DNA from: Burkholderiales bacterium
Lineage (GTDB): Bacteria; Pseudomonadota; Gammaproteobacteria; Burkholderiales; Casimicrobiaceae
Length of the DNA: 64,000 bases
Direction: 5' to 3'
Assembly (NCBI GenBank): GCA_016790165.1
Contig: JAEUPL010000006.1
Span: 1-64,000, forward strand
Position 1 is the first letter of the stretch. Each line of letters starts with the position of its first letter. The notes under the pieces are model-generated. The model was given only the letters and a program-made list of their open reading frames with translations, was not told the origin of the DNA and made no database searches. Below are positions 213 to 58,789 of this stretch, piece after piece. A program made the translations under genes and the position numbers.

Positions 213-332
213 ACAGCTTTTCGCTGGTATCGACTCGCCTTTGGTGTTTGCAGGCTGATTTCGATTAATGTCGACTTGATGAAAAAAAGGGGCGCAAGCG
301 CCTAGTGGAAGCCATCAGAGCGGAAAAGCTGA
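213..332 (+). repeat. 120-bp palindromic element, copy A
   Basis: First of seven equal-length copies in this window. It starts ACAGCTTTTC, has GTCGAC at 270-275 (57 bases in) and AAAAGC at 324 (54 bases further). Folded about the centre, about 31 of 60 opposed positions form Watson-Crick pairs by hand count. Its right end is GCTGA rather than GCCGT, which restores pairing with the left ACAGC at one position. The right arm contains the apparent start codon of the cysQ-like gene. Confidence 0.8.
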
Positions 333-1126
333 ATCAGGCCCGGATCGCTGCGGCGGAACCGGACGTTCGCCTGGCGCGGGATCTCGCCCTGCGCGCGGGG
401 GCGCTGCTGCTTGATCTCCGCGCACGCGCCTGCGGCGACGACCGGCTGACGGGGCGCGAACTGGGCGACGCCGGGGACGCGCAGGCCAACGCGCTGCTCC
501 TGGCGGCGCTGGCGGCGGAGCGACCGGACGACCGGGTGCTCTCGGAAGAGTCGACCGATGACCTGCGCCGACTGCGTGCATCGCGCGTGTGGATCATCGA
601 CCCGCTCGACGGCACCCGTGAATTCCGCGAAGGCCGCGACGACTGGGCGGTGCACGTCGCGCTGGTTGCGGGCGGGCAAGTCATCGCTGCCGCCGTATCT
701 CAGCCAGCGCGTGGCGACGTGTTTGATTCGATGCCGCCGATGGGCGGCGCGGACGCGGGGGCTGCGGGCGCTGCGGGTGCGCGTCGCATCGTCATCAGCC
801 GCTCACGCCCGCCGCGCTTCGCGCAGGCCGTCGCCGATGCGGTAGACGCCACGCTCTGGCCAGTGGGCTCCGCTGGCGCCAAGGCACTCACCGTGGTGCG
901 GGGTGAGGCGCTCGCCTACGTGCACGACGGCGGCATGAACGAGTGGGATGCCGCCGCGCCGGTTGGGGTTGCCCTGGCGCGGGGGCTGCACGTGAGCGAT
1001 TTGCGCGGTGAGCCCATCGCGTTCAATCAGCGCGACGTTGTGCTGCATCAGGGGCTGGTGATCTGCCGGCCAGAACTCGCGCGCACCGTCCTGCAGATCA
1101 CGTCTGCAGCAAGTCGTAGCGGTTAG
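305..1126 (+). CDS. cysQ: CysQ-like 3'(2'),5'-bisphosphate nucleotidase / inositol monophosphatase family
   Basis: A cytoplasmic Mg-dependent phosphatase of the inositol monophosphatase superfamily. CysQ members remove the 3' phosphate of PAP, a by-product of sulfate assimilation. Visible motifs are the metal-binding EES at residues 81-83, DPLDGT at 99-104 and WDAAAP near residue 213. The length of 273 residues is normal. The start is odd: the only plausible codon is GTG at 305, and it and about the first nine codons lie inside the right arm of a 120-bp palindromic element, so the element seems to have supplied the present 5' end. The recognisable domain begins near residue 19. Assignment to CysQ rather than another phosphatase of the superfamily is likely but not certain. 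Confidence 0.75.
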   Translation: MEAIRAEKLNQARIAAAEPDVRLARDLALRAGALLLDLRARACGDDRLTGRELGDAGDAQANALLLAALAAERPDDRVLSEESTDDLRRLRASRVWIIDPLDGTREFREGRDDWAVHVALVAGGQVIAAAVSQPARGDVFDSMPPMGGADAGAAGAAGARRIVISRSRPPRFAQAVADAVDATLWPVGSAGAKALTVVRGEALAYVHDGGMNEWDAAAPVGVALARGLHVSDLRGEPIAFNQRDVVLHQGLVICRPELARTVLQITSAASRSG

Positions 1127-1162
1127 CCGCCAACTGGCTGAATCGCGTCAGACGAAAGCGGC

Positions 1163-1189
1163 CCCGCGACGAGCCGCTGCCATCGCGGG
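1163..1189. terminator. Hairpin between convergent genes, possible bidirectional terminator
   Basis: CCCGCGA at 1163-1169 pairs with TCGCGGG at 1183-1189 across a 13-base loop, in the 75-bp gap between two convergent genes. There is no clear T-tract on either side, so the terminator call is tentative. Confidence 0.3.
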
Positions 1190-1201
1190 CAGTGGGTTTC
1201 C

Positions 1202-1510
1202 CTAAATCCGCAACCGCTCCACGACGCGCCCATTCTGCAGGTGCTCGCTGATGATCTCGTCGACATCTGCCTCGGTTTCGTAGTGGTACCAGACTTCTTC
1301 CGGGTAGATCACCATCGTCGGGCCTTCGTCGCAACGGTCGAGGCAGCCGGCGTTGTTCACGCGCACGCGGCCCTTGCCAGCGAGGCCAAGACCTTTCACC
1401 TTCTTCTTCGCGTAGTCGCGCAGATCGCCGGCGCAGCGCTCACCGCACGACGGCCGACCGTCGTCGCGCTCATTGGTGCAGAAGAAAACGTGGTGCTGGT
1501 AGTAACTCAT
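1202..1510 (-). CDS. Thioredoxin-like [2Fe-2S] ferredoxin
   Basis: A 102-residue protein that begins MSYYQHHVFFC. Cysteines at 11, 22, 56 and 60 match the spacing of the thioredoxin-fold [2Fe-2S] ferredoxins (C-x10-C then C-x3-C); an extra cysteine is at 26. Such proteins carry single electrons in the cytoplasm; the partner is unknown. The open frame extends upstream to 1708, but that would run into the divergent CoA-transferase, and family alignment clearly supports the ATG at 1508-1510. The intergenic gap to the divergent gene is only 37 bases, so the two promoters must be close or overlapping. Confidence 0.88.
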   Translation of the reverse strand: MSYYQHHVFFCTNERDDGRPSCGERCAGDLRDYAKKKVKGLGLAGKGRVRVNNAGCLDRCDEGPTMVIYPEEVWYHYETEADVDEIISEHLQNGRVVERLRI

Positions 1511-1547
1511 AATTGCAAATCGAACGTTCAACGCATCTGCATCAATT

Positions 1548-2789: not shown

Positions 2790-3157
2790 GCGCCGTCGAT
2801 AGCGCTTAGTTTGTCGCCCTGCCCCGGCACGCCAGGTCACGCCGTCTGCTTGCGTTCGTCGCGTCGTGGTGGCGTCGCTCGCCGGGGTTCGACGTACTGG
2901 ATAGGGCAATCGCGCCGAATCGACCACCCCGTGGTCGTTTCACGCTGTTCATGGTCGTCGACATCCTCATGGATTGGCGGCTTTGGAGCACTGGCTGGAC
3001 ATCGGCGCAACAAAACTGATGCGAAGAGTCGAACTTCGGCCTGATAATTCCCGTTTGGCCCGTTCTTGACGCGTCCCGTCGATTGTTTTCGTCCTTCAAG
3101 GCGCGGCCAGCTTTCGCCGTCTGTGGCACCACACTTCACACGCCAAGGGGTTGCACG
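2790..3157. other. Intergenic region, no gene seen
   Basis: No protein or RNA is recognisable in these 368 bases. A GTCGAC at 2957 with partly similar flanks (GGTCGTTT upstream, AAAAC downstream) faintly resembles the 120-bp palindromic element, but the conserved ends are missing. The region must hold the promoter of the secreted repeat protein that follows. Confidence 0.5.
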
Positions 3158-4726: not shown

Positions 4727-4808
4727 CACATCGCGGCGAGCAGACGCAGGCTCGGCCGCGCTTTCTTTACCCAGGCGCCAGCACAACGCAGCGACGTCAA
4801 ACCGTCGC

Positions 4809-12013: not shown

Positions 12014-12143
12014 TCTCGGACGGTGCCGTCCCTGTCCGACGATGATCAGTTGTCGCAACTTGTCAACCGGTCCCGTCTATCTCCATACTGGGCGTTGATC
12101 GCGCTGCTTGCGGGCACTGAGACGAACACGAAGGGAGACTCCA

Positions 12144-13667
12144 ATGACCGACTGGCTGTTTCGTTGCATCCATGTGGGCCTGTGCTCCGCGCTGCTGGGG
12201 TTGGCGGCGCCCGCAGTATCTGCACCGGGCGACCTGGACACCACGTTCAACACGACGGGGTATGTGCTGACCCAGATTGACGTCGCCAATCAGGATTTCG
12301 GCTGGGCGATGGCCATCCAGCCCGATCAAAAAATTGTGGTCGCCGGTCAGTGCATGGTGCAAGGCGACATCGACTTTTGCCTTGCCCGGTACTTGCCCAA
12401 CGGCAGCCTCGACACCAGTTTCAGCACCGACGGCCTGGTGACGGCGACCCTGTCCAGCACCGGCACGATGCATGATCGTGCCCGCGCGATGGCGATTCAG
12501 CCCGATGGCAAGATCATCGTGGGCGGTAGCTGCGACTCCACCACGGTCAGTGATTTTTGCCTCGCGCGGTTTACCACTGCGGGCGCGCTGGATACCACGT
12601 TTGGCACCAATGGCCGCGTGTTTACCGATTTTCAGGGGGGTGTCGACCGCATCAACGCCATCGCCATTGCGCCCGACGGAAAAATTGTGGCCGGTGGGGA
12701 ATGCGCGACCAGTACGGCGACGGTCACGGATTCCTGTACGGCACGCTACCTTAGCAACGGCGCCCTCGACATCTCGTTTGGACCGTTTCTTGATGGCAAG
12801 TACATTTTGGCTGGCGGTGCCGGCAACTACAGTGTGAATGCGGTCGCTGTACAGGCGGACGGCCGCACGTTTCTCGGGCACACCCTCTTCTCGACGGATG
12901 GACTAACTTCGGTGCGCATCCTACGTCGGCTTTCGCCCTCGGGGGTTGTTGAGGTGACATTCTTCCCTTCGACCGTCGACTTTACGCCATTCGATAGCGT
13001 GAACAGCCTCGTGCAGCAGCCGGACGGCGCGATCGTCATGGGGGGGCTCTGTGAGTACGCAGCCGGGACATTTGGTATTTGCGTCTTGCGCAACAAGTCG
13101 AGCCTTGCCGCCGATGCGTCGTTCGCCAACAATGCGGTCGGCTACTCGAATGGCACGGTGTCGGGCGCCTACGCCGCGCTACAGCCCGACGGCAAAGTGC
13201 TGGTCGTCAGCCTCTGCCGCGGTATGGCGGTCTTCCGCGATCAAATCTGTCTCGACCGCTTTCATTCTGACGGAAAATTTGACAGTAGCTTTGGCAGTGG
13301 CGGCCAGGCCTACGCCGACTTTGGCTTCGACCTCCGATTCAAGCGGATGCGGGCAGTTGCGGTGCAAAACGACGGCAACATTGTGGTGGCGGGCGCTTGC
13401 GAGGCGTCGACCAATGGGCCTGTGCGCTTTTGCGTTGCGCGCTTTCAGGGTGGGCCGCTGGGCTATCGTGCGTGCAGCATGGATATTGACGGCGACAATG
13501 CGGTGCGCTCCACCACAGACGCCCTGATCCTCGCGCGTGTATCGCTCGGACTGACGGGTAACGCCGTGGTCGGTGGCATCACCTTCCCGGCCACCGCAAC
13601 GCGCACGACCTGGTCGGCGATTCGTGCTTACCTCGTGAGTCAATGTGGCATGAGCCTGGCGCAGTAG
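12144..13667 (+). CDS. Secreted delta-60 repeat protein with dockerin-like C-terminus (second paralogue)
   Basis: A 507-residue exported protein. ATG 12144 follows AAGGGAGA and opens a clear signal peptide (ALLGLAAPAVSA). About seven delta-60 repeats follow, more divergent than in the first paralogue (cores QPDQK, QPDGK, APDGK, QADGR, QPDGA, QPDGK, QNDGN), each with the blade pattern ...CLARY...LDTTF. The C-terminal module carries MDIDGDN, TTDALILARVSLGLTGNAV, and W..IRAYLVSQCG, nearly the same as in the first paralogue. Its stop is followed within 15 bases by a 120-bp palindromic element. Function unknown; probably a surface-exposed propeller. Confidence 0.8.
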   Translation: MTDWLFRCIHVGLCSALLGLAAPAVSAPGDLDTTFNTTGYVLTQIDVANQDFGWAMAIQPDQKIVVAGQCMVQGDIDFCLARYLPNGSLDTSFSTDGLVTATLSSTGTMHDRARAMAIQPDGKIIVGGSCDSTTVSDFCLARFTTAGALDTTFGTNGRVFTDFQGGVDRINAIAIAPDGKIVAGGECATSTATVTDSCTARYLSNGALDISFGPFLDGKYILAGGAGNYSVNAVAVQADGRTFLGHTLFSTDGLTSVRILRRLSPSGVVEVTFFPSTVDFTPFDSVNSLVQQPDGAIVMGGLCEYAAGTFGICVLRNKSSLAADASFANNAVGYSNGTVSGAYAALQPDGKVLVVSLCRGMAVFRDQICLDRFHSDGKFDSSFGSGGQAYADFGFDLRFKRMRAVAVQNDGNIVVAGACEASTNGPVRFCVARFQGGPLGYRACSMDIDGDNAVRSTTDALILARVSLGLTGNAVVGGITFPATATRTTWSAIRAYLVSQCGMSLAQ

Positions 13668-13681
13668 AGCGGCGGGTTGTA

Positions 13682-13801
13682 ACAGCTTTTTTCCGCTAAC
13701 GAGCCACCCGCGGTCTTTGTAGCCATTTTTTGGGAACTATCGACTTGCCCATAAAACAGCCTAAAGCGACCATTTGGAAGTCGCTTGAGTCAAAAAGCCG
13801 T
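13682..13801 (+). repeat. 120-bp palindromic element, copy B
   Basis: Fills the gap between the convergent ends of a secreted repeat protein (stop 13667) and the aconitase-like gene (stop 13809). Starts ACAGCTTTTTT, has the central motif (ATCGAC variant) at 13739 and AAAAGCCGT at the right end, with the same 57/54 spacing as all other copies. About 33 of 60 opposed positions pair by hand count. Confidence 0.85.
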
Positions 13802-13808
13802 AACCGCG

Positions 13809-15824
13809 TCAATCGGCTGACGCGATCAGTTCAGCAAACGATGCGATGTACCCAAGGATCGCGCTCGCTGCAACGGTCGGTGGGCTGGCGAGCCAGACGC
13901 CGCCGGGTCCGCCGCGGCCGGGGAAATTGCGGTTGATCGCGCTGATCGTGACTTGCGCGGCGTCGGTAGAGGTGCCCGGCCCGCAGTTGGCGCATGCTCC
14001 GCACGCGGGCTGCAAGAGCGTTGCGCCAACCGCCTCGAACGCTGCCAAGTATCCGCGCTCAATGCAGTAGTCACGCACATCCACCGTGCCGAATTGCAAG
14101 AAGAGCTTCACATGCTCATGCACGCGCAAGCCGCGCGCCGCCGCCCACGCGAGCACGGCGTGGTAGTGATCGAAATCTTCGCGCTTGCCCGCCGTGCACG
14201 AGCCGCCATAGGCGATGTCGATACGTGTTCTCGCACCGAGCCATGACAGCGGCACACCATTGCCGGGGTCGCCCGGCATGGCGATCATGGGTGTAACTGC
14301 GCTGCAATCGAGCGTGAGGGTCTCAACGTACGTTGCGCCTTCGTCGCTCGTCATCCAATCTTCGAGCGCGAATTCGATGCCACGTCGTTCGCGCAAAAAG
14401 CGCACGGTTTCGTCGTCTGGCGCAAAGAGCCCCGAAAAGCCGCCGAGCTCAGCGCACATGTTGGTGATCGTAGCGCGCTCGTCGGTGCTTAACTGCGACG
14501 CAGCGCTTCCTGTGAATTCAAACACCTTGCCCATACCCGCGCCCGCGTGAATCGCAGGCAGCGCCAGCAGATGCAACACGAGGTCTTTCGCCGTCACGCC
14601 CAACGGCACGGTGCCGTCAAGCACGATGCGCAGCGACTGCGGCACGGTCACACGAACAACGCCAGTCATCATGGCGTTGGCCATGTCCGTGGTGCCCACG
14701 CCGAACGCAAGGCAGCCCAGCGCGCCGCTGTGTGGCGTGTGCGAGTCGGTACCGACCACGATCTGGCCCGGAAGACTGTAACGCTCAGCCATCAGCGCGT
14801 GTGAAATGCCCTGTGAACCGCCATCGTATTGGCTGCGCGGCAGGTAGCCGTGATCGTGCAAGCCATAGTCGCGCACAAAGTCACGATGTCCTGTCGAGAG
14901 CGCCTGCACGGTAGGCAGTAGTCCGTTGTTCACGTGCATCGCGCTTTGGTGCACGTAAGAGTAGTGATCTTCAAACGTGAGAATCGTTTCGGGCTCATGG
15001 AGTGCAAGCGGGCGACCGAACGTTTCGTGCAACATGTTCGACGCCATCGCTGTGTAGATGTCGTGAATGAAGCGCCAATCAGCGCGCACAAAAATGCCGC
15101 TGCCTGCGCGCAAATCGGTATTGGTGTTCGCCGTTGCGAGCACGTGGCGAGCGAGAATTTTCTCCGTGAACGTTTGCGGCGCTAAGAGGCCCGGGTACTT
15201 TTTGGGAGCGGCCTGAGCCGCGATGGGTGGTGGTGCACATTCAATGGCTGCCAAGGTCGCTGGCACAGCGATATTGGTTGGGCGCGTGCGCAAATGCACC
15301 GCACCGAAACGCAGCAAACCGCCTGCGCGCAACACGGCGTCGGTCAATGCATCACGTCCCGCGACGAGATCATCCACCGAGATCGTTTCGCCACGTTCGA
15401 TACGTTCAATGAGTCCGAAATCGGTGGACGTGAATAACCCCAAGTTATCTGCGTTTTGCCGATAGATGCGCTCGAAACTTTTGGCAATCACCAAGCGAAT
15501 TCCGGCGCGCAACTCTGCGGCGGGCGAGTGCTCGCGCGATGAGCCCTTGCCATAGCGATGGCCGGCGACGGTTACACAAAAGCCGCCGCCGCGCACAGCG
15601 TCGACGCCCAATGGCAAACGGTCACCACACTTCACGCCGGTATAGGGATAACGCCCCAAGCGCTGATCGAAATACACAACGGTGGAAAGCGGCGTGATTT
15701 CGTCGGTGGACACGTCATCGCGCAATTCACCGGCCTGCGCGAGCGTGAGCTGACGTCCCGCCAGCTGCGACTCAACGCGCGCGGGATCCTTCGTCAGAAA
15801 AAGAATTCGGCCAGTGAATTGCAT
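13809..15824 (-). CDS. Domain-swapped aconitase / isopropylmalate dehydratase-like enzyme
   Basis: A 671-residue hydro-lyase of the aconitase superfamily. The order is reversed from classic aconitase A: the LeuD-like swivel domain comes first (residues 1-200; YGKGSSREHSP at 91-101), then the LeuC-like catalytic part (residues 210-665; VGTDSHTPHSGALG near 357). Expected [4Fe-4S] ligands are C543 (GGSCTAGK) and C608/C611 (PACGACANCG). The substrate is unknown. Genes upstream on the same strand encode a Bug receptor, a CoA-transferase and an HMG-CoA-lyase-like enzyme, suggesting a branched hydroxy-dicarboxylate or tricarboxylate pathway. No clear ribosome site precedes the ATG at 15824; a repeat lies directly upstream. 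Confidence 0.82.
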   Translation of the reverse strand: MQFTGRILFLTKDPARVESQLAGRQLTLAQAGELRDDVSTDEITPLSTVVYFDQRLGRYPYTGVKCGDRLPLGVDAVRGGGFCVTVAGHRYGKGSSREHSPAAELRAGIRLVIAKSFERIYRQNADNLGLFTSTDFGLIERIERGETISVDDLVAGRDALTDAVLRAGGLLRFGAVHLRTRPTNIAVPATLAAIECAPPPIAAQAAPKKYPGLLAPQTFTEKILARHVLATANTNTDLRAGSGIFVRADWRFIHDIYTAMASNMLHETFGRPLALHEPETILTFEDHYSYVHQSAMHVNNGLLPTVQALSTGHRDFVRDYGLHDHGYLPRSQYDGGSQGISHALMAERYSLPGQIVVGTDSHTPHSGALGCLAFGVGTTDMANAMMTGVVRVTVPQSLRIVLDGTVPLGVTAKDLVLHLLALPAIHAGAGMGKVFEFTGSAASQLSTDERATITNMCAELGGFSGLFAPDDETVRFLRERRGIEFALEDWMTSDEGATYVETLTLDCSAVTPMIAMPGDPGNGVPLSWLGARTRIDIAYGGSCTAGKREDFDHYHAVLAWAAARGLRVHEHVKLFLQFGTVDVRDYCIERGYLAAFEAVGATLLQPACGACANCGPGTSTDAAQVTISAINRNFPGRGGPGGVWLASPPTVAASAILGYIASFAELIASAD

Positions 15825-19461: not shown

Positions 19462-20382
19462 ATGCGTGACCTTGATCTGACGTCGCTTCGCCTCTTCATC
19501 GCGGTCTGCGAGACGCGCAACATGGCTCGCGCGGCGCAGACGGCGAATCTGGTCGGCTCAGCGGTGAGCAAACGGCTAGCGCAACTTGAAGCGCAGATGG
19601 GCGTGCCCTTGTTGCAGCGCCGACGGCATGGCGTGGAGCCCACCGCCGCCGGGTTCACACTGCTGGAGCAGGCGCGCGACATGCTCGCCACCGCAAACCG
19701 CATCGAACAAGCGATGTCGGGCTACGCCGCTGGTGTGCGTGGCGAAGTGCGCGTGCTGGCGTCTGCTTCGGTAATGGCCGAATCGCTCGCGGATGATGTC
19801 GCGGCGTTTCTCTCGCAACCGCCGCATCGCGACATTCGTGTGACGATGGAAGAAATGATTAGCCCGGACATCGTGCGCCGCGTGCGCGAGGGCGCCGCCT
19901 CGCTCGGTATCTGCTGGGACGCTGCGGACACCACGGGCCTGACGACCGCGCCGTACCGCAGCGATACGCTGATGGTTGCCGTCCATCCTGCCCACCCATT
20001 GGCCGCGCGCCCGAGCCTGCGTTTCACCGACACGCTCGACTTCGAGCAAGTGAGCATGCCAGTGTCGAGTGCGGTGCAGGTGCTGCTCGCGCGCGCAGCG
20101 GCTGCGGCGGGCAAGCGCGTGCTGCATCGCGTCGTCGTCACCAATTTCGAGGCGGCGCTGCGCGTGGTGCGCGCCAACCTCGCCATCAGCGTCGTCCCGC
20201 GCGAAGTGGCCGCGCCGTATCTCGATGTGTACGGCCTGCGCTGTATCCCACTTGAGGAATCTTGGGCCGAGCGCCGTTTCACGATGTGCTATCGCGACGG
20301 CGACACGCTTTCGGCGGCCGCGCGACTGTTGATCGGGCAGTTGCGGCGCGATGATCCGGTGTCGGCAGTTCAGCGTCGCTAA
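19462..20382 (+). CDS. LysR-family transcriptional regulator
   Basis: A 306-residue regulator with the winged helix-turn-helix at residues 5-64 (LRLFIAVCETRNMARAAQTANLVGSAVSKRL pattern) and a periplasmic-binding-like effector domain. It is divergent from the catabolic run 19358-13809, so it probably controls that run in response to its substrate. Its TAA stop codon overlaps the first base of a 120-bp palindromic element. Confidence 0.92.
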   Translation: MRDLDLTSLRLFIAVCETRNMARAAQTANLVGSAVSKRLAQLEAQMGVPLLQRRRHGVEPTAAGFTLLEQARDMLATANRIEQAMSGYAAGVRGEVRVLASASVMAESLADDVAAFLSQPPHRDIRVTMEEMISPDIVRRVREGAASLGICWDAADTTGLTTAPYRSDTLMVAVHPAHPLAARPSLRFTDTLDFEQVSMPVSSAVQVLLARAAAAAGKRVLHRVVVTNFEAALRVVRANLAISVVPREVAAPYLDVYGLRCIPLEESWAERRFTMCYRDGDTLSAAARLLIGQLRRDDPVSAVQRR

Positions 20383-20501
20383 CAGCTTTTTAGCTCTAGC
20401 GACGGCCACATGGCGAATACAGGTCCAAAAGCGACAAAGTCGACAAATCGATTTTCCGGTATGCAAGGTCTACAGCGCCTTCGCTTACTGCAAAAAGCCG
20501 T
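20382..20501 (+). repeat. 120-bp palindromic element, copy C
   Basis: Begins inside the stop codon of the LysR gene (TAACAGC). ACAGCTTTTT at the left, GTCGAC at 20439 and AAAAGCCGT at 20493, with the invariant 57/54 spacing. About 29 of 60 opposed positions pair by hand count. It lies upstream of a secreted repeat protein gene. Confidence 0.85.
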
Positions 20502-20643
20502 ATCCGTCACTTTTTTGGGTAACCAAAGCGCCACGCGGCGAGTTTGATGGCGAATTTTCGTCTTTATGGTGTGCGGCGAACATTTACCGCTGCGCCGCGC
20601 GCGCTTTCTTTGGATTTCGTTTTATCCACACTACAGGCTTCCG

Positions 20644-22362
20644 ATGTTTGCTTCCCGGCCTCTTGCTCAAATATTCCACCACATTGCTGCCCGCCTCCTG
20701 TTGGGCGCAGCGATGCTTTGCGTCACGGCGTTGGCGCACGCCATCCCCGGCCAGCCGGGCACGCTTGACACCACGTGGGCGCTAGCTAATCCCTACGGTG
20801 ACGGCAAACGGGTGACGTCGATTGGCACGGACGACGCAGCCTATGGCGTTGCCGTGCAGCCTGACGGAAAAGTGGTGGTCGCGGGGACCTGCCGACTCGG
20901 CAACAAGAACGAGTTTTGTCTCGCGCGCTACAGTTCGAGCGGCACGCTGGATAACACGTTTGGCACCGGAGGCATCGTCCATACCGACGTCGGTGTGAGC
21001 GGCAGCAACGCTGCGGGCCTTCGCTTGCAGCCGGACGGCAAGATCGTCGTCGCGGGCGTTTGCTATGCCGCAAGCGGGCTCGCCGATGTCTGTCTTGCGC
21101 GCTACACCACCGTGGGCGCGCTCGATACGTCGTTCGGCAGCGGTGGCAAGGTGCTGACGTCGCTCGTTTCAAGCCATGACATCGCCAACGCACTGGCGCT
21201 GCAAATCGACGGCAAAATCGTGCTGGCGGGCACCTGTTCCAGCAGTGTCCCCGATGATGTTTGCCTCGTGCGCTACCTCAGCGATGGGGCGCTCGACGCA
21301 ACCTTCGGCAGCGCTGGCAAAGTCATCACGCCAATTGGCAGTCACCACGACCGCGCCTGGGCCGTAGCGCTTCTGGGCGACAACAAGATTGTGGTGGCCG
21401 GCGGCTGTCTGGTCGTAGGCTCGCAATTCTGCCTCGCCCGCTTCGATACCAATGGCGCACTCGACAGCGCATTCGGCAGTGGTGGCAAGGTGATAGTCGC
21501 GATCGGCAGCGAGCAGGACGAGGTTCGCGCCATTGCGGTGCAACCCGACGGCAACGTCGTCGTCGCGGGCCAGTGCGTTGTCAGCGGCGTTTTCCACTTC
21601 TGCCTCGCACGCTTCAATCCGAGCGGCGCACTCGACACCACCTTTGGAACCGGCGGCAGCGTCATCGCGGATCTCAGCAGCACGGGTGACGACTACGCCT
21701 ACGCACTGGCGCTGCAGCCCGACGGCAAGATGGTGGTGGCCGGCGGTTGCTGGAACGGCAACACGAACGAATTTTGTCTGGCGCGCTATCTCCCCGGCGG
21801 ACTGCTTGACGCGACCTTCGGTAGCTCAGGCCGTGTGGCGACGACGGTCGGCGGCAGCGCGACGGCAAATGCCCTCGCGTTGCAGACCGACGGCAAGATT
21901 GTGGTGGCGGGCCAGTGCTGGGGTGACAGCGACAACGATGTCTGTGTCGCCCGGTATGACGGCGACGCGCCGCTGAACTGCCCGCCGGACTTTGACGGTG
22001 ACGGCGTGGTCGACGCCACCAACGATGCGCTGATACTCGCGCGCATGAGTCTTGGCCTGACCGGCAACGCGGTAGTGGCCGGCCTCAGCTTCGCGCCACA
22101 AGCGACGCGCAAGACTTGGCCGTTGATCCGTGACTACTACGCGACGCAGTGCGCGCCGGTGCAGACGCAGCGCTGCCGCCCCGATTTTGACGGCGACGGC
22201 CTCGTGCTCGCTACGACCGATGCGCTGATCCTCGCCCGCGCCCGGCTCGGACTGACCGGCCCGGCGGTGATGAACGGCATTACCACCAACGGCGTGCGCA
22301 ACACGTGGCCGCTGGTCTTTGACTACCTCCTCAACCAGTGCGGGGTGACGTTTCCACCGTGA
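20644..22362 (+). CDS. Secreted delta-60 repeat protein with two dockerin-like modules (third paralogue)
   Basis: A 572-residue exported protein. ATG 20644 is preferred because the signal peptide (ARLLLGAAMLCVTALAHA) follows it; the open frame starts earlier at 20566. Seven delta-60 repeats (QPDGK-, QIDGK-, LGDNK- and QTDGK-type cores, each followed by a C-LARY blade) precede two tandem C-terminal modules: DFDGDGVVDATNDALILARMSLGLTG and, after QTQRC, DFDGDGLVLATTDALILARARLGLTG types. The duplicated module resembles the paired calcium loops of a type I dockerin more closely than in its paralogues. A terminator follows. Confidence 0.82.
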   Translation: MFASRPLAQIFHHIAARLLLGAAMLCVTALAHAIPGQPGTLDTTWALANPYGDGKRVTSIGTDDAAYGVAVQPDGKVVVAGTCRLGNKNEFCLARYSSSGTLDNTFGTGGIVHTDVGVSGSNAAGLRLQPDGKIVVAGVCYAASGLADVCLARYTTVGALDTSFGSGGKVLTSLVSSHDIANALALQIDGKIVLAGTCSSSVPDDVCLVRYLSDGALDATFGSAGKVITPIGSHHDRAWAVALLGDNKIVVAGGCLVVGSQFCLARFDTNGALDSAFGSGGKVIVAIGSEQDEVRAIAVQPDGNVVVAGQCVVSGVFHFCLARFNPSGALDTTFGTGGSVIADLSSTGDDYAYALALQPDGKMVVAGGCWNGNTNEFCLARYLPGGLLDATFGSSGRVATTVGGSATANALALQTDGKIVVAGQCWGDSDNDVCVARYDGDAPLNCPPDFDGDGVVDATNDALILARMSLGLTGNAVVAGLSFAPQATRKTWPLIRDYYATQCAPVQTQRCRPDFDGDGLVLATTDALILARARLGLTGPAVMNGITTNGVRNTWPLVFDYLLNQCGVTFPP

Positions 22363-24741: not shown

Positions 24742-25269
24742 TTAGGCGTTGTCGTCTTTGAGCGCAACACCCGCCACCAACTCATCCTGCAGCTTCTTCA
24801 GGGTCTCCCACGAACCGCTGGCGCAGAGCGCGGCTTGCTGTGCCCAACTCTGCGGGTTGGCGAGCTTGAAGTTCGGTCCGGCGGCGTCGAGGATTTTGGA
24901 GATGGAGGCGACGTCCATCGCCGCCAGTTGCGAGAACGTGTGAACGCTGGCCGCATGCAGGACGCCGTTGATCTTTGGACCAATGCCTTCGATGATTTCG
25001 AAGTTGTCATAGCCGTTCGCGCTCTTCAATCTGCCAAAACCAAAGCCCGCAGCGCTCGCGATGGCAGCGGCGGAAAGCCCGGTCGATGGCGTTGCCGGCG
25101 CAGGCGCGTCAGCTGGTGTTGCCGTGAACGCAGCGGGTGTTGCGTGTGTTCCACCGTGGTCGCCGTTCGAGCCGCCGCGACGGAAGAATTTGTCGAACAA
25201 CCAATGCAGGAGCCAACCCAATAACAGCCCGAGCAGAAACCACCACACACAGCACATCAAACCGGACAT
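24742..25269 (-). CDS. Membrane protein with helix-hairpin-helix-like domain
   Basis: A 175-residue protein from ATG 25267-25269 (GGGAGA 5 bases upstream). It has one strong N-terminal membrane helix (CCVWWFLLGLLLGWLLHWLF), a basic stop-transfer (FFRRGG), a low-complexity linker, and a C-terminal domain with NFEIIEGIGPKINGVLHAASVHTFSQLA, a helix-hairpin-helix motif of the type found in L21-like/DUF4332 proteins. Such domains usually bind nucleic acid, odd for a membrane protein. It heads an operon with the OmpA/BON gene. Function unknown. Confidence 0.75.
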   Translation of the reverse strand: MSGLMCCVWWFLLGLLLGWLLHWLFDKFFRRGGSNGDHGGTHATPAAFTATPADAPAPATPSTGLSAAAIASAAGFGFGRLKSANGYDNFEIIEGIGPKINGVLHAASVHTFSQLAAMDVASISKILDAAGPNFKLANPQSWAQQAALCASGSWETLKKLQDELVAGVALKDDNA

Positions 25270-26217: not shown

Positions 26218-26219
26218 GA

Positions 26220-33470: not shown

Positions 33471-34649
33471 ATGAATCCACGCCTCGCCACCCGACTCAAA
33501 CCGGGCACCGACTACCACCCGCTTCAGGTGATTGCCTTCTTTCGCCGCTGGCCACCCTCGGCGCTGCGCAATCTGCTGTTCACCGCGATCGTCTGCGCGG
33601 TGGTGATTGCGGTCATTACCCTGGTCGGGTTCGGCATGGGGCACCGCATCACCTGGCGCGGCCTGTACGAAATCGCCGTCTTCACCGTGATGATCGGCTA
33701 CATGCAGCACTTGCTGTACAAGTTGATGATTACCTGGGCCCGCCGCAGCGAACGCATGGCCCCGATCATCATGCATCCGGTGTCACTCGGGTTCGTCGTG
33801 CCGGTGGCCGCCATTTACGTGGGCTACACGCTGGCGCGCTCGCTGCTTGCGGGCGCCCTCTGGTTCAACTTGAGCGATAACTGGCGCGGCTTCGTATTTG
33901 CCAGCAGCATTAGCGTGGGCATAGGTTGGGCGGTGTGGGAGGGCGTCGAAGCGTCGCGCCGCCGCGAAGTGGAACGCCGCGAACGCGCTGAGCTCGAAGC
34001 GGCCGTCGAGCGCGCCGACAAAGAGCGCGCTACGGCCGAACTGAAGACGCTGCGCGCACAGGTCGAGCCCCACTTCCTGTACAACACGCTGTCCAACGTG
34101 GTCAGCCTGATTGAGCGCGAGCCGCGTACAGCAAAGCACATGACCGAGCGGCTGATCGGATACCTGCGGCACACCCTGGATGCGTCACGTCGTGAGCGCG
34201 CCACCGTCGGTGATGAACTCGCGATCATCGCCGACTACCTGGAAATCTTGCGCCTGCGCATGGGGGACCGGCTGAGTTATGCCATTGCGGCTGATGACGA
34301 GGTGCGCGCGCAACCGTTGCCGCCAATGCTGCTGCAACCGCTGGTGGAGAACGCCATCAAGCACGGCCTGGAGCCCAAAATCGAAGGCGGGGCGGTGCGC
34401 GTCACCGTGACGCAGCGCGCCGACCCGGCCACGGCGACGCCGACGCTGGACATTGTGATCGAGGACAGCGGACTCGGGTTCGGCGCGTCACCGCAGACGG
34501 CCGGTGCCGGCAGCGGCCTGGATAACGTTCGGGCGCGCTTGCGTGCCTTGTATGGCGACGGCGCGAAGCTTGCGATCGAGCAGCCAGGCGTTGGCACGCG
34601 CATCCGCGTCAGCGTTCCGGGCGGGGCGCATGCCGGACAGGTCGAATGA
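33471..34649 (+). CDS. LytS/AlgZ-type sensor histidine kinase
   Basis: A 392-residue inner-membrane kinase. Four predicted helices (residues about 33-55, 65-85, 103-123, 140-157) lead to a short coiled coil and a HisKA_7TM/His_kinase domain: the phospho-accepting H201 in QVEPHFLYNTLSNV, N-box VENAIKHG and G-box GSGLDNVRARLRALYG. It should phosphorylate the LytTR regulator encoded downstream. The two genes are 199 bases apart, a gap occupied by a palindromic element, whereas such pairs normally overlap or nearly so. Signal unknown. Confidence 0.9.
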   Translation: MNPRLATRLKPGTDYHPLQVIAFFRRWPPSALRNLLFTAIVCAVVIAVITLVGFGMGHRITWRGLYEIAVFTVMIGYMQHLLYKLMITWARRSERMAPIIMHPVSLGFVVPVAAIYVGYTLARSLLAGALWFNLSDNWRGFVFASSISVGIGWAVWEGVEASRRREVERRERAELEAAVERADKERATAELKTLRAQVEPHFLYNTLSNVVSLIEREPRTAKHMTERLIGYLRHTLDASRRERATVGDELAIIADYLEILRLRMGDRLSYAIAADDEVRAQPLPPMLLQPLVENAIKHGLEPKIEGGAVRVTVTQRADPATATPTLDIVIEDSGLGFGASPQTAGAGSGLDNVRARLRALYGDGAKLAIEQPGVGTRIRVSVPGGAHAGQVE

Positions 34650-34693
34650 GTCCCGCTGCGGCGTGCGCGTTTTGTTCACGGTTTTCGGCAGGT

Positions 34694-34813
34694 ACAGCTT
34701 CAACCTGCAGACGGCTAGCCGGCGGTCGTTTGCATAGATTTTTTCTGTAAGTCGACTATGAACAAAATGCGCTGCCAACGACCGATGGCTGGTCATTAGA
34801 CCAAAAAAGCTGA
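34694..34813 (+). repeat. 120-bp palindromic element, copy E
   Basis: Sits inside a two-component operon, between kinase stop 34649 and regulator start 34849. ACAGCTT at the left, GTCGAC at 34751, AAAAGCTGA at the right; exact 57/54 spacing. The segment GGTCGTTTGC in the left arm pairs almost completely with GCCAACGACC in the right. About 35 of 60 opposed positions pair by hand count. Confidence 0.85.
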
Positions 34814-34848
34814 ATCGACTCCGAATCATATCTGGACTGACATTCCCC

Positions 34849-35700
34849 ATGACTAAACCCGTCGCCCTGATTGCTGAAGATGAGCCCAATCTCGCGCTCG
34901 CGTTGAAGGACGCGCTGGCTCGTGTCTGGCCCGAGCTCAAGATCGCCGACGTCGTCGGCAACGGCCCCGCCGCGCTCCACGCCGTCGACGCGCATTCACC
35001 CGAGGTGCTGTTTCTCGACATCCGGATGCCAGGCCTCACGGGCTTGCAGGTCGCCGAACGCCTCGCCAACTCGGCGGCGGGCGACGGGCCGCTGGTCGTG
35101 TTTGTCACGGCCTACAACGAATACGCGGTGCAGGCGTTCGAGCGCGAAGCGGTGGACTATCTGGTGAAGCCCGTCGACGACGAGCGTCTGGCCGAAACCG
35201 TGGCCCGCGTCAAAAAGCGCCTCGCAGCGCGCGAGGGTGCCGCCGGCACCGTCGCGGCGCCGGAGATCGCGCCGGGCGAGCTCGCGCGCGCCTTGGCGCT
35301 GATCCAGCGGCTGGCCGGCGGCGGCAGTGGTGCCGGGCTTGCTTCGGGGGGCATGACCGCCGCTCCGGGGGCGCGGTACCTGAAATTCCTGCGTGCGGGC
35401 ATCGGCGATACGGTGCGCATCATCCCCGTGGACGACGTGATCTACCTGCAGGCGCAGGACAAATATGTCTCCATCTACACCGCCGATGGCGAAGACCTGA
35501 TCCGCATTTCGCTCAAGGAACTCGCCGAGCAGCTCGACCCCGGTCTGTTCGTGCAGGTGCACCGCTCAACGATCGTCAACCTGCGTGCCGTGCTGACCGC
35601 CGACCGCGACTTCACCGGGCGTGTACTGCTCACGTTACGCGGCGTGCGCGACAAAGTGCAAGTGTCACGACAGAACGCGCATCTGTTTGCGCGGATGTAG
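34849..35700 (+). CDS. LytTR-family response regulator
   Basis: A 283-residue regulator. Receiver domain residues 1-125 with phospho-accepting D57 (VLFLDIRMPG), then a linker rich in alanine and glycine, and a LytTR DNA-binding domain from about residue 175 (VDDVIYLQAQDKYVSIYTADGE, FVQVHRSTIVNL). Partner of the upstream LytS-type kinase; the AlgR/AlgZ or BtsS/R class is the closest functional analogy. Target genes cannot be inferred. Confidence 0.93.
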   Translation: MTKPVALIAEDEPNLALALKDALARVWPELKIADVVGNGPAALHAVDAHSPEVLFLDIRMPGLTGLQVAERLANSAAGDGPLVVFVTAYNEYAVQAFEREAVDYLVKPVDDERLAETVARVKKRLAAREGAAGTVAAPEIAPGELARALALIQRLAGGGSGAGLASGGMTAAPGARYLKFLRAGIGDTVRIIPVDDVIYLQAQDKYVSIYTADGEDLIRISLKELAEQLDPGLFVQVHRSTIVNLRAVLTADRDFTGRVLLTLRGVRDKVQVSRQNAHLFARM

Positions 35701-43574: not shown

Positions 43575-44906
43575 TCACAGCGACTTCGCCAGCCGTAGTC
43601 CGCTGAACTGCCAGCGCTTTTCCGGCTGGAAGAAGTTGCGGTAAGTTCGCCGCGCATGCCCCGCCGGCGTCGCCACCGAGGAGCCGCGCAGCACGAACTG
43701 ATTGCACATGAATTTGCCGTTGTATTCCCCCACCGCGCCTTCGGCGGTGACAAATCCGGGGTAGCCCAGGTAGGCCGACGCCGTCCATTGCCACACGGCG
43801 CCGAACATCTGGGTCAGTCCCACGCGGTCAGGTGCCGTCGGGTGCAACGCGCCCTCATTGGCCTGCAGGGCGACGCCAGCGGCGGCGTGTTCCCACTCCG
43901 CCTCCGTGGGCAGGCGCGCTTCGGCCCACCGCGCATATGCGTCGGCCTCAAAGAAACTCAGATGGCAGGCCGCGGCATCGAGATCGAGCGGGACGAGTCC
44001 GCGTAGCGTGAACTCGCGCCACGCGCCGTCGCTGCCGCTCGCGCCCTTGGCTTCGTCGTCACGCCGCCAGTAAAACGGCGCCTGCCAGCCCTCACGCACT
44101 ACGCGGTCCCAGCCGTCGGACAGCCATAACTCGTGCCGACGGTAACCCCCGTCGGCGATGAAGGCGAGGTAATCGCGATTGCTGACGAGTCGGTCTGCCA
44201 ATTGGTAGGGTCGCAGAAACACCTGATGGCGCGGCGATTCATTGTCGAACGCGAACGCGGTGGACTCGCTGGCGTCATGTCCAATTTCGACCAGTCCGCC
44301 CGTGAAGCGGGTCCATCCGGCCGTTGGCGTCGGCGTTGCGGTGGCGCGGGCTGGCGCCTCACCGATGGGCGCGTAGGCGGGGTACAGCGGATTCACCGAC
44401 AGCATGTGTTTGACGTCGGTAAGCAGCAGTTCCTGATGTTGCTGCTCGTGATGCAAGCCCAGTTCCAGTAGCGCGCGAAGGGAGGGCGCGATCGCGGCCT
44501 GCGTTGTGCCGGCCAGCACCGCCCGCATCGCTGCGTCCACGTGGGCGCGGTAGGCAAGCACGCGGTCGAGCGACGGTCGCGAGAGCAGGCCGCGCTCGGG
44601 GCGCGGGTGCTTGTCGCCGACCGTGTTGTAGTAGCTGTTGTAGATGACACGGAACGCCGGGTCGAAGGGCACGTAGCCTCGCGCGTGGGGCGTCAGGATG
44701 AACGTCTCGAAGAACCAGGTGGTATGTCCAAGGTGCCACTTCACGGGGCTGGCATCGGGCATCGACTGCACCTGGCAATCCTCGGCGGAGAGGGGCGCCG
44801 CAAGTGCTCTGGAATGCTCGCGGACACGGCAATAGGTCTCGGCCGGATCGGCGCTGAGCGTTCCTGACGCGCCGACTTGCGCTACCGCCGCCTCGGTTCC
44901 TGACAT
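43575..44906 (-). CDS. egtB: Ergothioneine biosynthesis sulfoxide synthase EgtB
   Basis: A non-heme iron oxygenase that joins a thiol to hercynine with O2. From ATG 44904-44906 (AAGGAG upstream) it has 443 residues: DinB-like N-terminal half with iron ligands H58 (WHLGH), H153 and H157 (HHEQQHQE), and a formylglycine-generating-enzyme-like C-terminal half (PTEAEWEHAA, NFFQPEKRWQFSGLRLA). No egtA, egtC or egtE homologue is in the window; the donor thiol (gamma-glutamylcysteine or cysteine) and the lyase step must be settled elsewhere. Confidence 0.93.
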   Translation of the reverse strand: MSGTEAAVAQVGASGTLSADPAETYCRVREHSRALAAPLSAEDCQVQSMPDASPVKWHLGHTTWFFETFILTPHARGYVPFDPAFRVIYNSYYNTVGDKHPRPERGLLSRPSLDRVLAYRAHVDAAMRAVLAGTTQAAIAPSLRALLELGLHHEQQHQELLLTDVKHMLSVNPLYPAYAPIGEAPARATATPTPTAGWTRFTGGLVEIGHDASESTAFAFDNESPRHQVFLRPYQLADRLVSNRDYLAFIADGGYRRHELWLSDGWDRVVREGWQAPFYWRRDDEAKGASGSDGAWREFTLRGLVPLDLDAAACHLSFFEADAYARWAEARLPTEAEWEHAAAGVALQANEGALHPTAPDRVGLTQMFGAVWQWTASAYLGYPGFVTAEGAVGEYNGKFMCNQFVLRGSSVATPAGHARRTYRNFFQPEKRWQFSGLRLAKSL

Positions 44907-45047
44907 GATCTTCTCCTTCGTCTGCCGCATGCTACGCCGTCTGCCCAGCAGCGGTTTTCCAGCGTACCTCGTCGCCATGCCGGAGCAGTCGCAGTGCCGT
45001 GCGCTGTCCTTACAGACCTCACACGGGGCATTGCGTTCGAGGCGTCA

Positions 45048-45167
45048 ACAGCTTTTTCCGTGAAGCCACCGCCCAACAGTCGATGTGACCCAATTTGCGA
45101 TAGAGTCGACTTTAACAAAAATAGGGTCAAAACCGCCATTGGCTGGTCTACTGAGCTGAAAAGCCGT
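45048..45167 (+). repeat. 120-bp palindromic element, copy F
   Basis: Lies in the divergent gap between egtB and the TetR gene. ACAGCTTTTT at the left, GTCGAC at 45105, AAAAGCCGT at 45159; exact 57/54 spacing. GACCCAATTT in the left arm faces AAAATAGGGTC in the right. About 37 of 60 opposed positions pair by hand count, one of the best copies. Confidence 0.88.
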
Positions 45168-45190
45168 ATCCGGAGACGGGTCACTTTACA

Positions 45191-45262: not shown

Positions 45263-45997
45263 ATGACCCTGTTCAAGAATTTTCGCTGTCCCGCTGCCGC
45301 CTTGCGTGAGGCGGCCGCAGGGGGACGCACCCGCCAGCGCGCGATGGATGGCGACGACAAGGAAGCGCGTCGCCAGGCGATTCTCGATGCGGCAGAACGC
45401 CTCTTTGCGGATCGCCACGAACTGGTCAACGTGGCCGACGTCGCCGAGGCGGCTGGTCTCGCCAAGGGAACGGTCTACCTGTATTTCCAGACCAAGGAAG
45501 AGATTTACCTCGCCCTTCACCTGCGTCACGTCGAGCGTTTCTTCACCACGCTCATTCATTTGCTCGAGAGCGGGCAGCCCTTTGCGTTCGAGCAACTGCA
45601 TCGCCTCACCGACGAGCACATGGTGCGTGCACCGATCTACATGCCGCTGGGCGCCTGCTGCATCGGGTTCGCGCCAGACGCGGTGCCGATCGAGGCTGCG
45701 GGCCACTTTCAGGCGCAATTGACGCACTGGCTCATCCGCGCGGGCCGCGGCCTGGAGCACCACTTTCCCAAGCTGCCGGCCGGCGAGGGCGCGCGCCTGC
45801 TCAAGCACAGCTACGCGATGATGATCGGCATGTACAGCCTGATGCGGGGCACTGAGGCAGGCGATCCGAAATGCCCCGTAATACCTGGCATGGGCAGTTA
45901 CGAAGACGAAGTGGCGCTGGCGCTGACCCGCTACTGGGCTCACGTTGCAGGGATAGCCGACGGCAGTGCTGACGCGCTTGGTCGCATCCAGCGATAG
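45263..45997 (+). CDS. TetR-family regulator of the adjacent RND efflux genes
   Basis: A 244-residue repressor. Helix-turn-helix residues about 35-80 (QAILDAAERLFADR, VADVAEAAGLAKGTVYLYFQTKEEIY). The C-terminal domain has the ligand pocket; an unusual MRAPIYMPLGACCIGF-type segment with two adjacent cysteines is seen. ATG 45263 or the internal ATG 45344 could be the start; the first 27 residues are not conserved in the family. It heads the same strand as the MFP and RND genes, and a palindromic operator precedes it. Confidence 0.9.
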   Translation: MTLFKNFRCPAAALREAAAGGRTRQRAMDGDDKEARRQAILDAAERLFADRHELVNVADVAEAAGLAKGTVYLYFQTKEEIYLALHLRHVERFFTTLIHLLESGQPFAFEQLHRLTDEHMVRAPIYMPLGACCIGFAPDAVPIEAAGHFQAQLTHWLIRAGRGLEHHFPKLPAGEGARLLKHSYAMMIGMYSLMRGTEAGDPKCPVIPGMGSYEDEVALALTRYWAHVAGIADGSADALGRIQR

Positions 45998-55887: not shown

Positions 55888-55929
55888 ACGGCGAATCGCC
55901 GGATCGCCGAAAAGTTCAGGCGACCGGCG

Positions 55930-57041: not shown

Positions 57042-57252
57042 GCGCCGGAGTTTATCGGCCCGATCACGTCATGCCGTTGATGCCGATCAAGCGGTGTTGC
57101 TCACGAATGCGTTAACGCGATCGTCGCGAAACCCCATCGCCCGCCAGTAGGAGCGTGGATGAGGGTGAGGGGAACAGACCGTGCGTTGGCGACGCCGCAT
57201 TGGCCAGCTGCCCCGGCGGCAGGACACACCACGTGCATCCAGCACCTTGTCA

Positions 57253-57340
57253 TTCCCGCGAAGGCGGGAATCCAGCGTCTTTGGGTTCACGAGGGCGATC
57301 CGTAGCGCGAAAAGTCGCCGGGCCCCTGCCTTCGCAGGGG
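57253..57340. repeat. Pair of short dispersed hairpins
   Basis: TTCCCGC-GAAG-GCGGGAA at 57253-57270 and CCCCTGC-CTTC-GCAGGGG at 57323-57340, each with a perfect 7-bp stem. The first, with the following TCCAG, is the widespread ATTCCCGCGAAGGCGGGAATCC repeat class. Nothing else is seen in 57042-57377. Confidence 0.75.
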
Positions 57341-57377
57341 CGGCGTATCGAGCAGACCAATTCAGCGTTGCCCCAAG

Positions 57378-58559
57378 TCACGCGCGGATGACCGATGCCA
57401 GCGCCCGGCGCGGCGCGGCGGGCGTGGGCTCGGTGGTGTAGCCGATGCGGCACAGCATCTGCACTGTGGCGTCGCTCTCGCTGCGTGGCGCGTCGCGATT
57501 GAGCACGGCGCGGTGCACGGCGGTGTAGTGCGCCGCCATTTCCGGGTATTCCTGCAGCGCCTGGCTCATCGGATGCACGCCGATGCCGAGTTCGGTCGCC
57601 TTGAGTTGCAGGCGCACGAAGGCGCGCCCCGCCTCGACTTGCTGGTCGCGCCGGTTGCCAGCCGTGGTCAGCCAGATCCAGCCCATCGTCTCCTGCGTGG
57701 TGGTGACGTACATCTCGGTCATCTGCTTGTCGGCCGGACTGCCGGGCGCGGGCACCGCCTTGCGGTCCAGCATGCCGAAGGTGTCGGCGAAGCGGGCGAG
57801 GAAATTGGTGAGCGCCACGCCGTCGCGGTGCGCCATGATCTCGGCGGAACCGATGCGCAGTTTGCCCAGCGTTTCGATGACGACGCGCGGTACCTTCTTG
57901 TCGAGCAGCCCCGCTTCGCGTGCAATGTCACGCAGGCGCTGCACCTGCGCCGCCTCGACCGTGCCACCGGCGGCCACGGCGTTGCTCTGCGCGGTGCTGC
58001 TGAGCGTGCGTAGCACGTCGGCGCTGATCGGCTTGCTCATGTCGTAGCCCCAGCGCGCCGTGCGCCGAGCCAGCACGTGAGCGAACAGCGGGTCGCGCTG
58101 GCCTTGCCCGGCCAGCTCCACGCGCGCGACCGGGCGCTGATCCCACTGCGCCAACGGCTGCGGCAGGGCACCCTGGGGCCACAGCGTCACCCGGGCGCCG
58201 ATGCCTTGGTCGCCGAGCGCCTGCACCAGCAGTTCGAGAAAGCAGCCGTGGCCGACCAGAATCTGCCGACCAAACGGATCGGAATCGGCGAGCAGGCGAT
58301 CGCGGTCGCAGTAGAGCGTGATCGCGTTGGCCTCGCGCAAGTCCACGATCCACGGCTGCATGTTGTGCGGGTTCGGCGCGGTGATCGCATACGCCACGGC
58401 ACGCCGCCGCGGGTCGCGCTCGGCGCTGCCGGGGCCGCTCCACGCCTCGACGGCCTCGGCGGGAAACGCGGTGAAACTGGCGCAGCCGCCGAGCGAGCCG
58501 ACACCCGCAGCGACGAGCACGCCGCCACCGGCCAGACGAATGAAATTGCGACGATCCAT
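57378..58559 (-). CDS. Tat-exported nitroreductase-like (Acg family) lipoprotein
   Basis: From ATG 58557-58559 a 393-residue protein. The signal has RRNFIRLAGG (Tat) and a lipobox LGGC at residues 24-27, so it is a Tat lipoprotein. The body resembles Acg-type FMN-binding nitroreductases (ITAPNPHNMQPWIVDL, HRDGVALTNFLARFADTFGMLDR, AGRAFVRLQLKATELGIGVHPMSQALQEYPEM). Redox substrate unknown. It may bind FMN, but catalysis is not certain as Acg proteins are often degenerate. Divergent from the toxin-antitoxin pair, with a palindromic element between. Confidence 0.78.
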   Translation of the reverse strand: MDRRNFIRLAGGGVLVAAGVGSLGGCASFTAFPAEAVEAWSGPGSAERDPRRRAVAYAITAPNPHNMQPWIVDLREANAITLYCDRDRLLADSDPFGRQILVGHGCFLELLVQALGDQGIGARVTLWPQGALPQPLAQWDQRPVARVELAGQGQRDPLFAHVLARRTARWGYDMSKPISADVLRTLSSTAQSNAVAAGGTVEAAQVQRLRDIAREAGLLDKKVPRVVIETLGKLRIGSAEIMAHRDGVALTNFLARFADTFGMLDRKAVPAPGSPADKQMTEMYVTTTQETMGWIWLTTAGNRRDQQVEAGRAFVRLQLKATELGIGVHPMSQALQEYPEMAAHYTAVHRAVLNRDAPRSESDATVQMLCRIGYTTEPTPAAPRRALASVIRA

Positions 58560-58669
58560 ACGAGCTCCAACGAAGTGTGTGATGACGCGGTGGATTCTCG
58601 GAAGCGTTACGCAGCTGCACAATTCCCCACGGCTGCATAGGAGCTATGCGCGAGCGACCCACGGTCGCA

Positions 58670-58789
58670 ACAGCAATTGAGATGTATCGACGGCTGGACG
58701 GTATATGCAGGGCGATTTTTTGCCAAGTCGACTTGCATAAAAAAGTGCCCGAATACACCGTACGGCGGTCGCTGAAGCGGAAAAGATGT
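58670..58789 (+). repeat. 120-bp palindromic element, copy G
   Basis: In the divergent gap (58560-58905) between the nitroreductase-like and antitoxin genes. ACAGCAATTG at the left, GTCGAC at 58727, AAAAGATGT at the right; exact 57/54 spacing despite altered ends. It has the best self-pairing (about 38 of 60 by hand count), for example AAGTCGACTT at the centre. Confidence 0.8.

Follow-up and report, generated by a model that had tools for sequence, protein, structure and literature searches.

A dispersed family of near-constant 122-bp palindromic elements in a Burkholderiales genome and its relatives, with a putative role as protein docking sites

ERIC and other long enterobacterial palindromes are intergenic, measure about 120-130 bp and have copies that are recognisably alike in sequence. 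Integron attC sites and Vibrio cholerae repeats are about 120 bp long, have dyad symmetry and often lie at a stop codon, and DNA uptake sequences are about 10-12 bp. Here we describe a family of palindromic elements with seven copies in a 64,000-nucleotide stretch of DNA (the window) from a Burkholderiales bacterium of the family Casimicrobiaceae (assembly GCA_016790165.1, contig JAEUPL010000006.1, positions 1 to 64,000, forward strand). The family was followed through the source genome (G000) and 16 relatives of the same genus (G001-G016; 17 genomes in all), which are genomes or metagenome-assembled genomes (MAGs), several of them incomplete. One complete 358-kb contig of G000 (C18), not picked for copy number, was added to the window to give 422 kb. 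The elements resemble ERIC in their length, palindromic form and intergenic position, but their copies share a spacing code more than a sequence. With attC sites they share a length of about 120 bp, dyad symmetry and a frequent position at a stop codon; unlike them, they show no covariation between arms and lie outside cassette arrays, on average about 10-16 kb apart; an integron attC identity was set aside on this layout and on the absent arm covariation.

REPINs are reported to change in a compensatory way on the two hairpin sides, to be accompanied by frequent REP singlets and to have a REP next to every RAYT that was examined (PMC3116915). Like the REPINs of Pseudomonas, with their RAYT, the present elements occur as many dispersed intergenic copies made of two inverted half-elements and fall into several sequence classes. 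They differ in that their arms carry no compensatory changes in five sets of copies, that C18 holds no solo half above 22 bits outside the elements, that they are not regularly beside Y1-transposase genes (5 of 17 regions) and that no near-identical copies occur among 96. With arm covariation, singlets, near-identical copies and regular transposase adjacency all absent, a REPIN/RAYT identity was rejected. The E. coli DNA gyrase motif mapped by Topo-Seq spans about 130 bp and is symmetric about the cleavage site, with a 10.75-bp G/C phasing that resembles nucleosome patterns (PMC6379681). The element is likewise symmetric, has A/T against G/C phased at about 10 bp in G000 (weakly in the G011 dialect) and is of similar length (122 versus about 130 bp), and is unlike the motif in its base-specific boxes, its dialects and its information of about 100 bits per element. 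The DNA uptake sequences of Neisseriaceae are chromosome-wide sites with dialects that differ by species (PMC3630211); the present elements share genome-wide sites and species dialects, but are 122 bp long with fixed internal spacing. A listing-level literature search, with most subscription papers and the palindromic-repeat surveys PMC2267715 and PMC3733652 outside the comparison, returned no evidently fitting family.

We propose that the family represents dyad-symmetric duplex-DNA docking sites for one dedicated, putative protein complex, held by selection; we regard this proposal as evenly poised between right and wrong. Copy number and length were assessed genome-wide. The pattern ACAGCTTTTN{40,55}GTCGAC gave 106 matches in the whole genome and none when reversed; with the shuffled control of the 422 kb also at zero, chance is excluded. 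Among the 100 of these matches that were listed, the gap was exactly 48 in 93. The 422 kb contained 28 copies, against none in shuffled sequence, and 27 of them were exactly 122 bp long when length was left free by up to 12 in each half. Extrapolation from these 28 copies gives an estimate of about 250 in the 3.76-Mb genome. A sequence-only model recovered the same seven copies in the window at 54.7-64.5 bits (better strand). The next match scored 14.8 bits (2915-3018, minus strand, E 0.0017); it stands outside the copy count and could be an element remnant. In C18, all 21 copies scored above 70 bits and three shuffles gave none, and no match fell between 25 and 70 bits, so that decaying copies were not seen there. 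The preliminary description of this DNA had named a genome-wide search as a possible refutation; further copies proved plentiful and near-constant in length. Of 108 G000 copies, 102 were exactly 122 bp and the other six differed by +1 (four), -1 (one) or +10 (one), but many of the 108 came from fixed-length patterns or top model hits, and length constancy outside the 422 kb is to that extent overstated. Models and patterns were trained on the best-matching copies, and very divergent copies may be missed. The copy of 132 bp (L003:1501; G000 C1:43540) is longer by 10 bases, all within one half, which corresponds to about one turn of the helix. Paralog identity among 96 G000 copies averaged 0.567, with a maximum of 0.725.

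The preliminary description had listed seven copies in which ACAGC comes first, GTCGAC 57 bases on (ATCGAC in the copy at 13682) and AAAAG 54 bases further, and all of these were reproduced. It had also assigned them one fixed length, which is right for all seven, and put that length at 120 bp, which is not. In a profile of 192 half-sites (96 G000 copies), 95% have A or T at half index 0, and this extra conserved A/T base at each edge makes the unit 122 bp. The copies are listed below without strand, with neighbours from gene calls made by a simple codon-score script.

212-333, no strand: element copy 1, 122 bp; contig end on the left, first called gene to the right 305-1126 (+)
13681-13802, no strand: element copy 2, centre ATCGAC; between the convergent genes 12108-13667 (+, DUF5122 beta-propeller) and 13809-15824 (-, aconitase family)
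20381-20502, no strand: element copy 3; shares two bases with the end of the LysR-type gene 19462-20382 (+) and lies upstream of 20566-22362 (+, DUF5122)
25483-25604, no strand: element copy 4; between called genes 24742-25329 (-) and 25729-26298 (-)
34693-34814, no strand: element copy 5; in the gap that separates histidine kinase gene 33471-34649 (+) from LytTR response regulator gene 34849-35700 (+)
45047-45168, no strand: element copy 6; flanked by 43575-44978 (-) and by called gene 45263-45997 (+), itself followed by an HlyD-type gene
58669-58790, no strand: element copy 7; adjoins 57378-58622 (-), right neighbour uncertain, either 58816-59712 (-) or 58906-59259 (+)

The listed start of gene 305-1126 (+) lies inside copy 1 and is probably too far upstream. 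The two DUF5122 beta-propeller genes of the window (12108-13667 and 20566-22362) each adjoin an element copy.

From the edge inwards, the unit consists of W-ACAGC-TTTT, a GC-rich part with an inner sub-dyad, an A/T tract at index 46-50, and AA-GTC meeting GAC-TT at the dyad. Copy 5 serves as the example.

34693-34702, mirror 34805-34814, no strand: outer box, half index 0-9; family consensus WACAGCTTTT, from which copy 5 deviates at the inner end
34710-34730, mirror 34777-34797, no strand: inner sub-dyad, index 17-37; consensus A-CGAC...GGTCG-T (G000 dialect), local axis at index 27
34739-34743, mirror 34764-34768, no strand: inner A/T tract, index 46-50
34748-34759, no strand: central box; family consensus AAAGTCGACTTT, exact dyad axis, TCGA the most conserved core

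In the profile of the 192 half-sites the element edges are sharp, and columns outside drop towards background. The half-site carries about 50 bits and the whole element about 100 bits; about 14 bits would specify 250 sites. The half-site A/T profile of G000 has a period of 9.7-10.1 bp, and none of 2000 permutations was equally strong. The A/T tracts of G000 copies can be either T or A, a freedom that suggests reading of shape rather than of bases at these tracts.

Conservation in place was examined at the gap between the kinase and regulator genes, which was compared across the genus by protein search, blind to the element. This gap holds an element in six species (G000, G012, G005, G013, G015 and G011). 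All six were placed at exactly 122 bp by a scan left free by 3 bases either way, in gaps of 107-199 bp, and in several species little DNA separates the element from the start of the regulator gene. For G006 and G014 the contig stops at the gap. In G002, G007 and G010 the two genes are 0-7 bp apart, and their best matches, only 39-41% identical, may not be orthologs. Downstream of the kinase gene in G004 (L147), a 332-bp gap shows by eye only a half-element, as though broken by an insertion. An aconitase query for a second same-locus comparison gave matches in only 3 of the 17 genomes.

Ten same-locus pairs from eight loci, taken from DNA alignments, were compared in register without gaps. Identity was 82% over the 520 cells of high-information columns and 37% over the 420 cells of low-information columns, where arithmetic gives about 27% agreement for unrelated letters of this composition. 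In nine of the ten pairs, high-information columns were 63-90% and low-information columns 21-45% identical; the tenth is a close pair with 90% identity in its low columns. The elements are kept in place by selection. The preliminary description had read constant length with loose sequence as a sign of selection, and these same-locus comparisons between species bear it out. Two elements of MAG JAKPSO, L014 and L022, have two flanks that match different places in G000, placing these elements at or near rearrangement junctions.

Relatives carry species-specific dialects in the same register. With the first model at E 1e-6, matches were found in 11 of the 17 genomes, only two of them in G009. G011, negative for this model, has 20 good copies in 180 kb, 17 of them exactly 122 bp, with a consensus in the same register: AGCTT at index 3-7, A17, GCC, GG, T37, A40, a T-rich stretch at 46-50 and T59. 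G014 was included by an AGCTT...AAGCT test (31 matches versus 10 in the reversed control). In G002, a pooled model not trained on that genome gave 14 hits above threshold with a top score of 39, against a reversed-sequence maximum of 0. After refitting there were 21 hits at 35-60 bits (24-53 when left out one at a time; control maximum 14), a soft count in that at least one hit (55626) looks like coding sequence on inspection. Fitting a motif to G002 by naive iteration drifted into noise. G007 and G010 gave weak hits only, at the one locus examined, and G016 had no element by either the G000-based or the AGCTT-based search. None of 47 other genomes of the family had more than 7 matches in the AGCTT...AAGCT test, and five exceeded the control, by at most 2. 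A strict three-anchor pattern found 25 loci in named genomes; every one lies in a MAG titled as Burkholderiales, Betaproteobacteria or Pseudomonadota, and several of the titles mention sludge or a reactor.

The primary constraint on the element, its 122-bp dyad carrying phased A/T patches and base-specific boxes, is of the kind expected from a protein that makes many contacts with the DNA or wraps it. On our proposal of docking sites, a dimeric or multimeric protein would contact or wrap the whole 122 bp by way of two rigidly spaced 61-bp half-sites, each made up of outer box, inner sub-dyad, A/T tract and centre. The sites would be inherited in place in intergenic gaps, and their sequences would track the changing specificity of the protein, giving one dialect per species. 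In-place conservation with rigid spacing, which duplex sites should show, was found in the six-species gap, the ten pairs and 27 of the 28 unselected copies. Among C18 gaps of at least 30 bp, the element was present in 5 of 35 convergent, 10 of 99 tandem and 5 of 36 divergent gaps (20 of 21 elements placed). These similar rates indicate that it is not tied to gene ends as such, and because of them the role would probably be chromosome-wide (architecture, topology or segregation) rather than that of one regulon. A model-selected set of 101 copies had hinted at a preference for 3-prime ends, with 57 in tandem, 25 in convergent and 7 in divergent gaps (a further 8 overlapped a called gene and 4 had no neighbour); the preference was not borne out in the unselected C18. 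Each half also has a weak hairpin and a T-run, and a probable further role of many copies is to help terminate transcription that enters through that half. A bolder version of the proposal, which we hold only tentatively and consider rather doubtful, is a chromosome-organising code: a genus-specific complex would wrap 122 bp at hundreds of fixed intergenic addresses, like a sequence-programmed nucleosome or insulator, its recognition rewritten several times while the geometry was kept.

Several observations weigh against docking sites. No binding protein was found, in a search that was not systematic and covered two protein families only (Y1 transposase and PF00521). The ten same-locus pairs come mostly from copies found by fixed-length patterns, and this selection partly accounts for their equal length and lack of indels; the fair test is the gap compared across six species. 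Where G000 aligns with the surroundings of elements L009, L022 and L029 of relatives it has no element, which indicates that sites are gained or lost. The A/T phasing is weak in the G011 dialect (17 copies; best period 7.2 bp, P 0.04 for 9.5-11 bp). The G002 version is much looser, and G005 has a second class of 15 sites (L183-L197) of exactly 120 bp, each half one base shorter, with the missing base by eye between index 37 and 56; the spacing is therefore not absolutely fixed across the genus. The halves fold better than column-permuted halves, with z of -5.3 in G000, -5.0 in G011, -4.6 in G008, -2.8 in G005 and -1.6 in the short class of G005. Independent duplex contacts do not predict such local hairpins, though a symmetric dimer could give them. 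Finally, T minus A at index 46-50 in tandem gaps was higher in the half facing transcription, at 0.40 versus 0.08 in G000 (57 pairs, P 0.003) and 0.52 versus -0.26 in G011 (10 pairs, P 0.02). This polarity of the T-run with transcription direction in two of three sets points to a role at the RNA level.

The hairpins and T-runs are what would be expected if the element were a bidirectional terminator, in which each half, read from outside to centre, forms a GC-rich hairpin followed by a T-run and the rest acts as protein roadblock or spacer. A weak local hairpin within each half, absent from the preliminary description, is supported by the folding of the halves, and of the hairpin registers the one with its axis at index 27 gained most pairs in each of four sets. 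Permuting the columns also upsets dependence between neighbouring bases, however, which makes this evidence good and not conclusive, and stricter per-pair covariation at that register (z 1.0, 3.4 in G011, -0.5, -1.2 and 0.0) was clear in only one of five sets. Halves in convergent gaps resemble the facing half, and hairpin energy in G000 differs in the same direction (P 0.04 and 0.06 in two runs); the P values for T-runs and hairpin energy carry no correction for the number of regions and sets examined. In G000, index 38-44 (P 0.004) and index 10-16 (P 0.03) are skewed in the same direction but less strongly, which a general strand bias might also produce. A mixed third set showed no T asymmetry (0.16 versus 0.12; 20 pairs, P 0.58), and its hairpin energy was reversed, at -8.2 for the facing half versus -9.4 (P 0.23). 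T count and hairpin energy were unrelated to the distance of the next gene. Terminators would also not explain why divergent gaps of C18 carry the element equally often, why it lies between kinase and regulator genes and near the regulator start in several species, or why it has an exact 122-bp length, an outer box and a centre. We consider this account of the element unlikely; terminator activity looks real in places but secondary. Pairing along the whole palindrome, as a structured RNA or protein-bound cruciform, is extremely improbable. The preliminary description had raised both, on a hand count of 24-38 paired among 60 opposed positions in single copies, and a recount agreed (31, 33, 29, 24, 35, 37 and 38 of 60 per copy). 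This pairing above chance stands for single copies, where it is due to the symmetric consensus, and fails once column composition is allowed for. A covariation test of opposed arm columns, which had been suggested there, revealed no compensatory change in any of five sets: z was -1.4 in G000 (103 copies), 1.5 in G011 (37), 0.3 in G005 (20), 1.3 in the short class of G005 (15) and -1.0 in G008 (28). In 96 G000 copies the true register scored -1.4, below neighbouring registers. RNAalifold found no consensus pair in 54 aligned copies of mixed species, and Rfam gave no match at gathering score in the window. The folds of full elements are somewhat better than those of their column-permuted versions (z -2.6 to -6.1), which local hairpins can explain. 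A first mixed-species set (42 copies) had slight arm-arm and within-half excesses; the arm-arm excess is attributed to mixing of dialects because it vanishes within single dialects. Opposed columns without compensatory change make the long palindrome a symmetric consensus, not a cruciform or RNA hairpin; of the earlier suggestions, protein binding remains the best reading while cruciform and arm-paired RNA are dropped.

Symmetry and phasing could also mark a strong DNA gyrase site, a 122-bp symmetric pattern of A/T at about 10 bp round a cleavage core, wrapped by gyrase and serving as a genome-wide point of supercoil relief. Size, symmetry and, in G000, phasing are similar to those of the E. 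coli motif. PF00521 (gyrase/topoisomerase IV A-subunit) has a single match in 13 of the 17 genus genomes, including G005, which is one contig, and two partial matches in 4, those of G003 overlapping; among 24 members of the order sampled from other families, 19 had two matches. Gyrase may thus carry extra work in this genus and may have to do the decatenation. Single A-subunit matches, however, also occur in relatives without the element, and dialects alter the boxes within one genus. The E. coli motif is described as degenerate, whereas the element has about 100 bits with base-specific boxes. We regard a gyrase site as quite unlikely. Less likely still is a miniature mobile element, either a miniature inverted-repeat transposable element or REPIN-like, left by an old burst moved in trans by a transposase. 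Dispersed, intergenic, symmetric elements in many copies fit such an origin, and some are unshared at the aligned place between species. Y1-transposase matches occur in 15 of the 17 genomes, and the two lacking them, G009 and G016, show few or no elements by the patterns used. An element was present, however, in only 5 of 17 regions round Y1-transposase genes (12 without; all Y1 matches of G000, G005, G008 and G011, not sorted into RAYTs and others). The bases that immediately flank the element on its two sides are mostly A/T but match each other in only 42 of 96 copies, so that there is no obvious target duplication, longer ones being judged by eye in 42 copies. No pair among 96 G000 copies exceeds 72.5% identity, C18 lacks 25-70-bit matches and solo halves, and the same loci are occupied in other species with their free columns largely changed. 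These results make recent mobility unlikely, and the preliminary suggestion of a miniature mobile element is not upheld as a recent or active process.

Element spacing in the window looked regular (coefficient of variation 0.33), but that in the 358-kb C18 was not significantly so (0.74, P 0.12), and regular chromosomal spacing was rejected. Within C18, the parts at 20-50 kb and 300-310 kb have lower G+C (0.57-0.59) and no elements, and are possibly acquired DNA without the sites. Two element patterns had no exact match in a viral collection, and one element copy plus flanks had no match in plasmids.

We know of no bacterial chromosome-wide site that combines 122 bp, about 100 bits, such rigidity and species dialects. 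If a protein wraps these sites, they would constitute a programmed, position-fixed nucleoprotein system in bacteria. Hundreds of sites changing together without copying would, if this is true, allow the co-evolution of a DNA-binding protein with its genome-wide targets to be observed directly within one genus. Sequence-similarity searches see little of these copies, which have their spacing in common more than their letters, so that similar systems may be hidden in other genomes.

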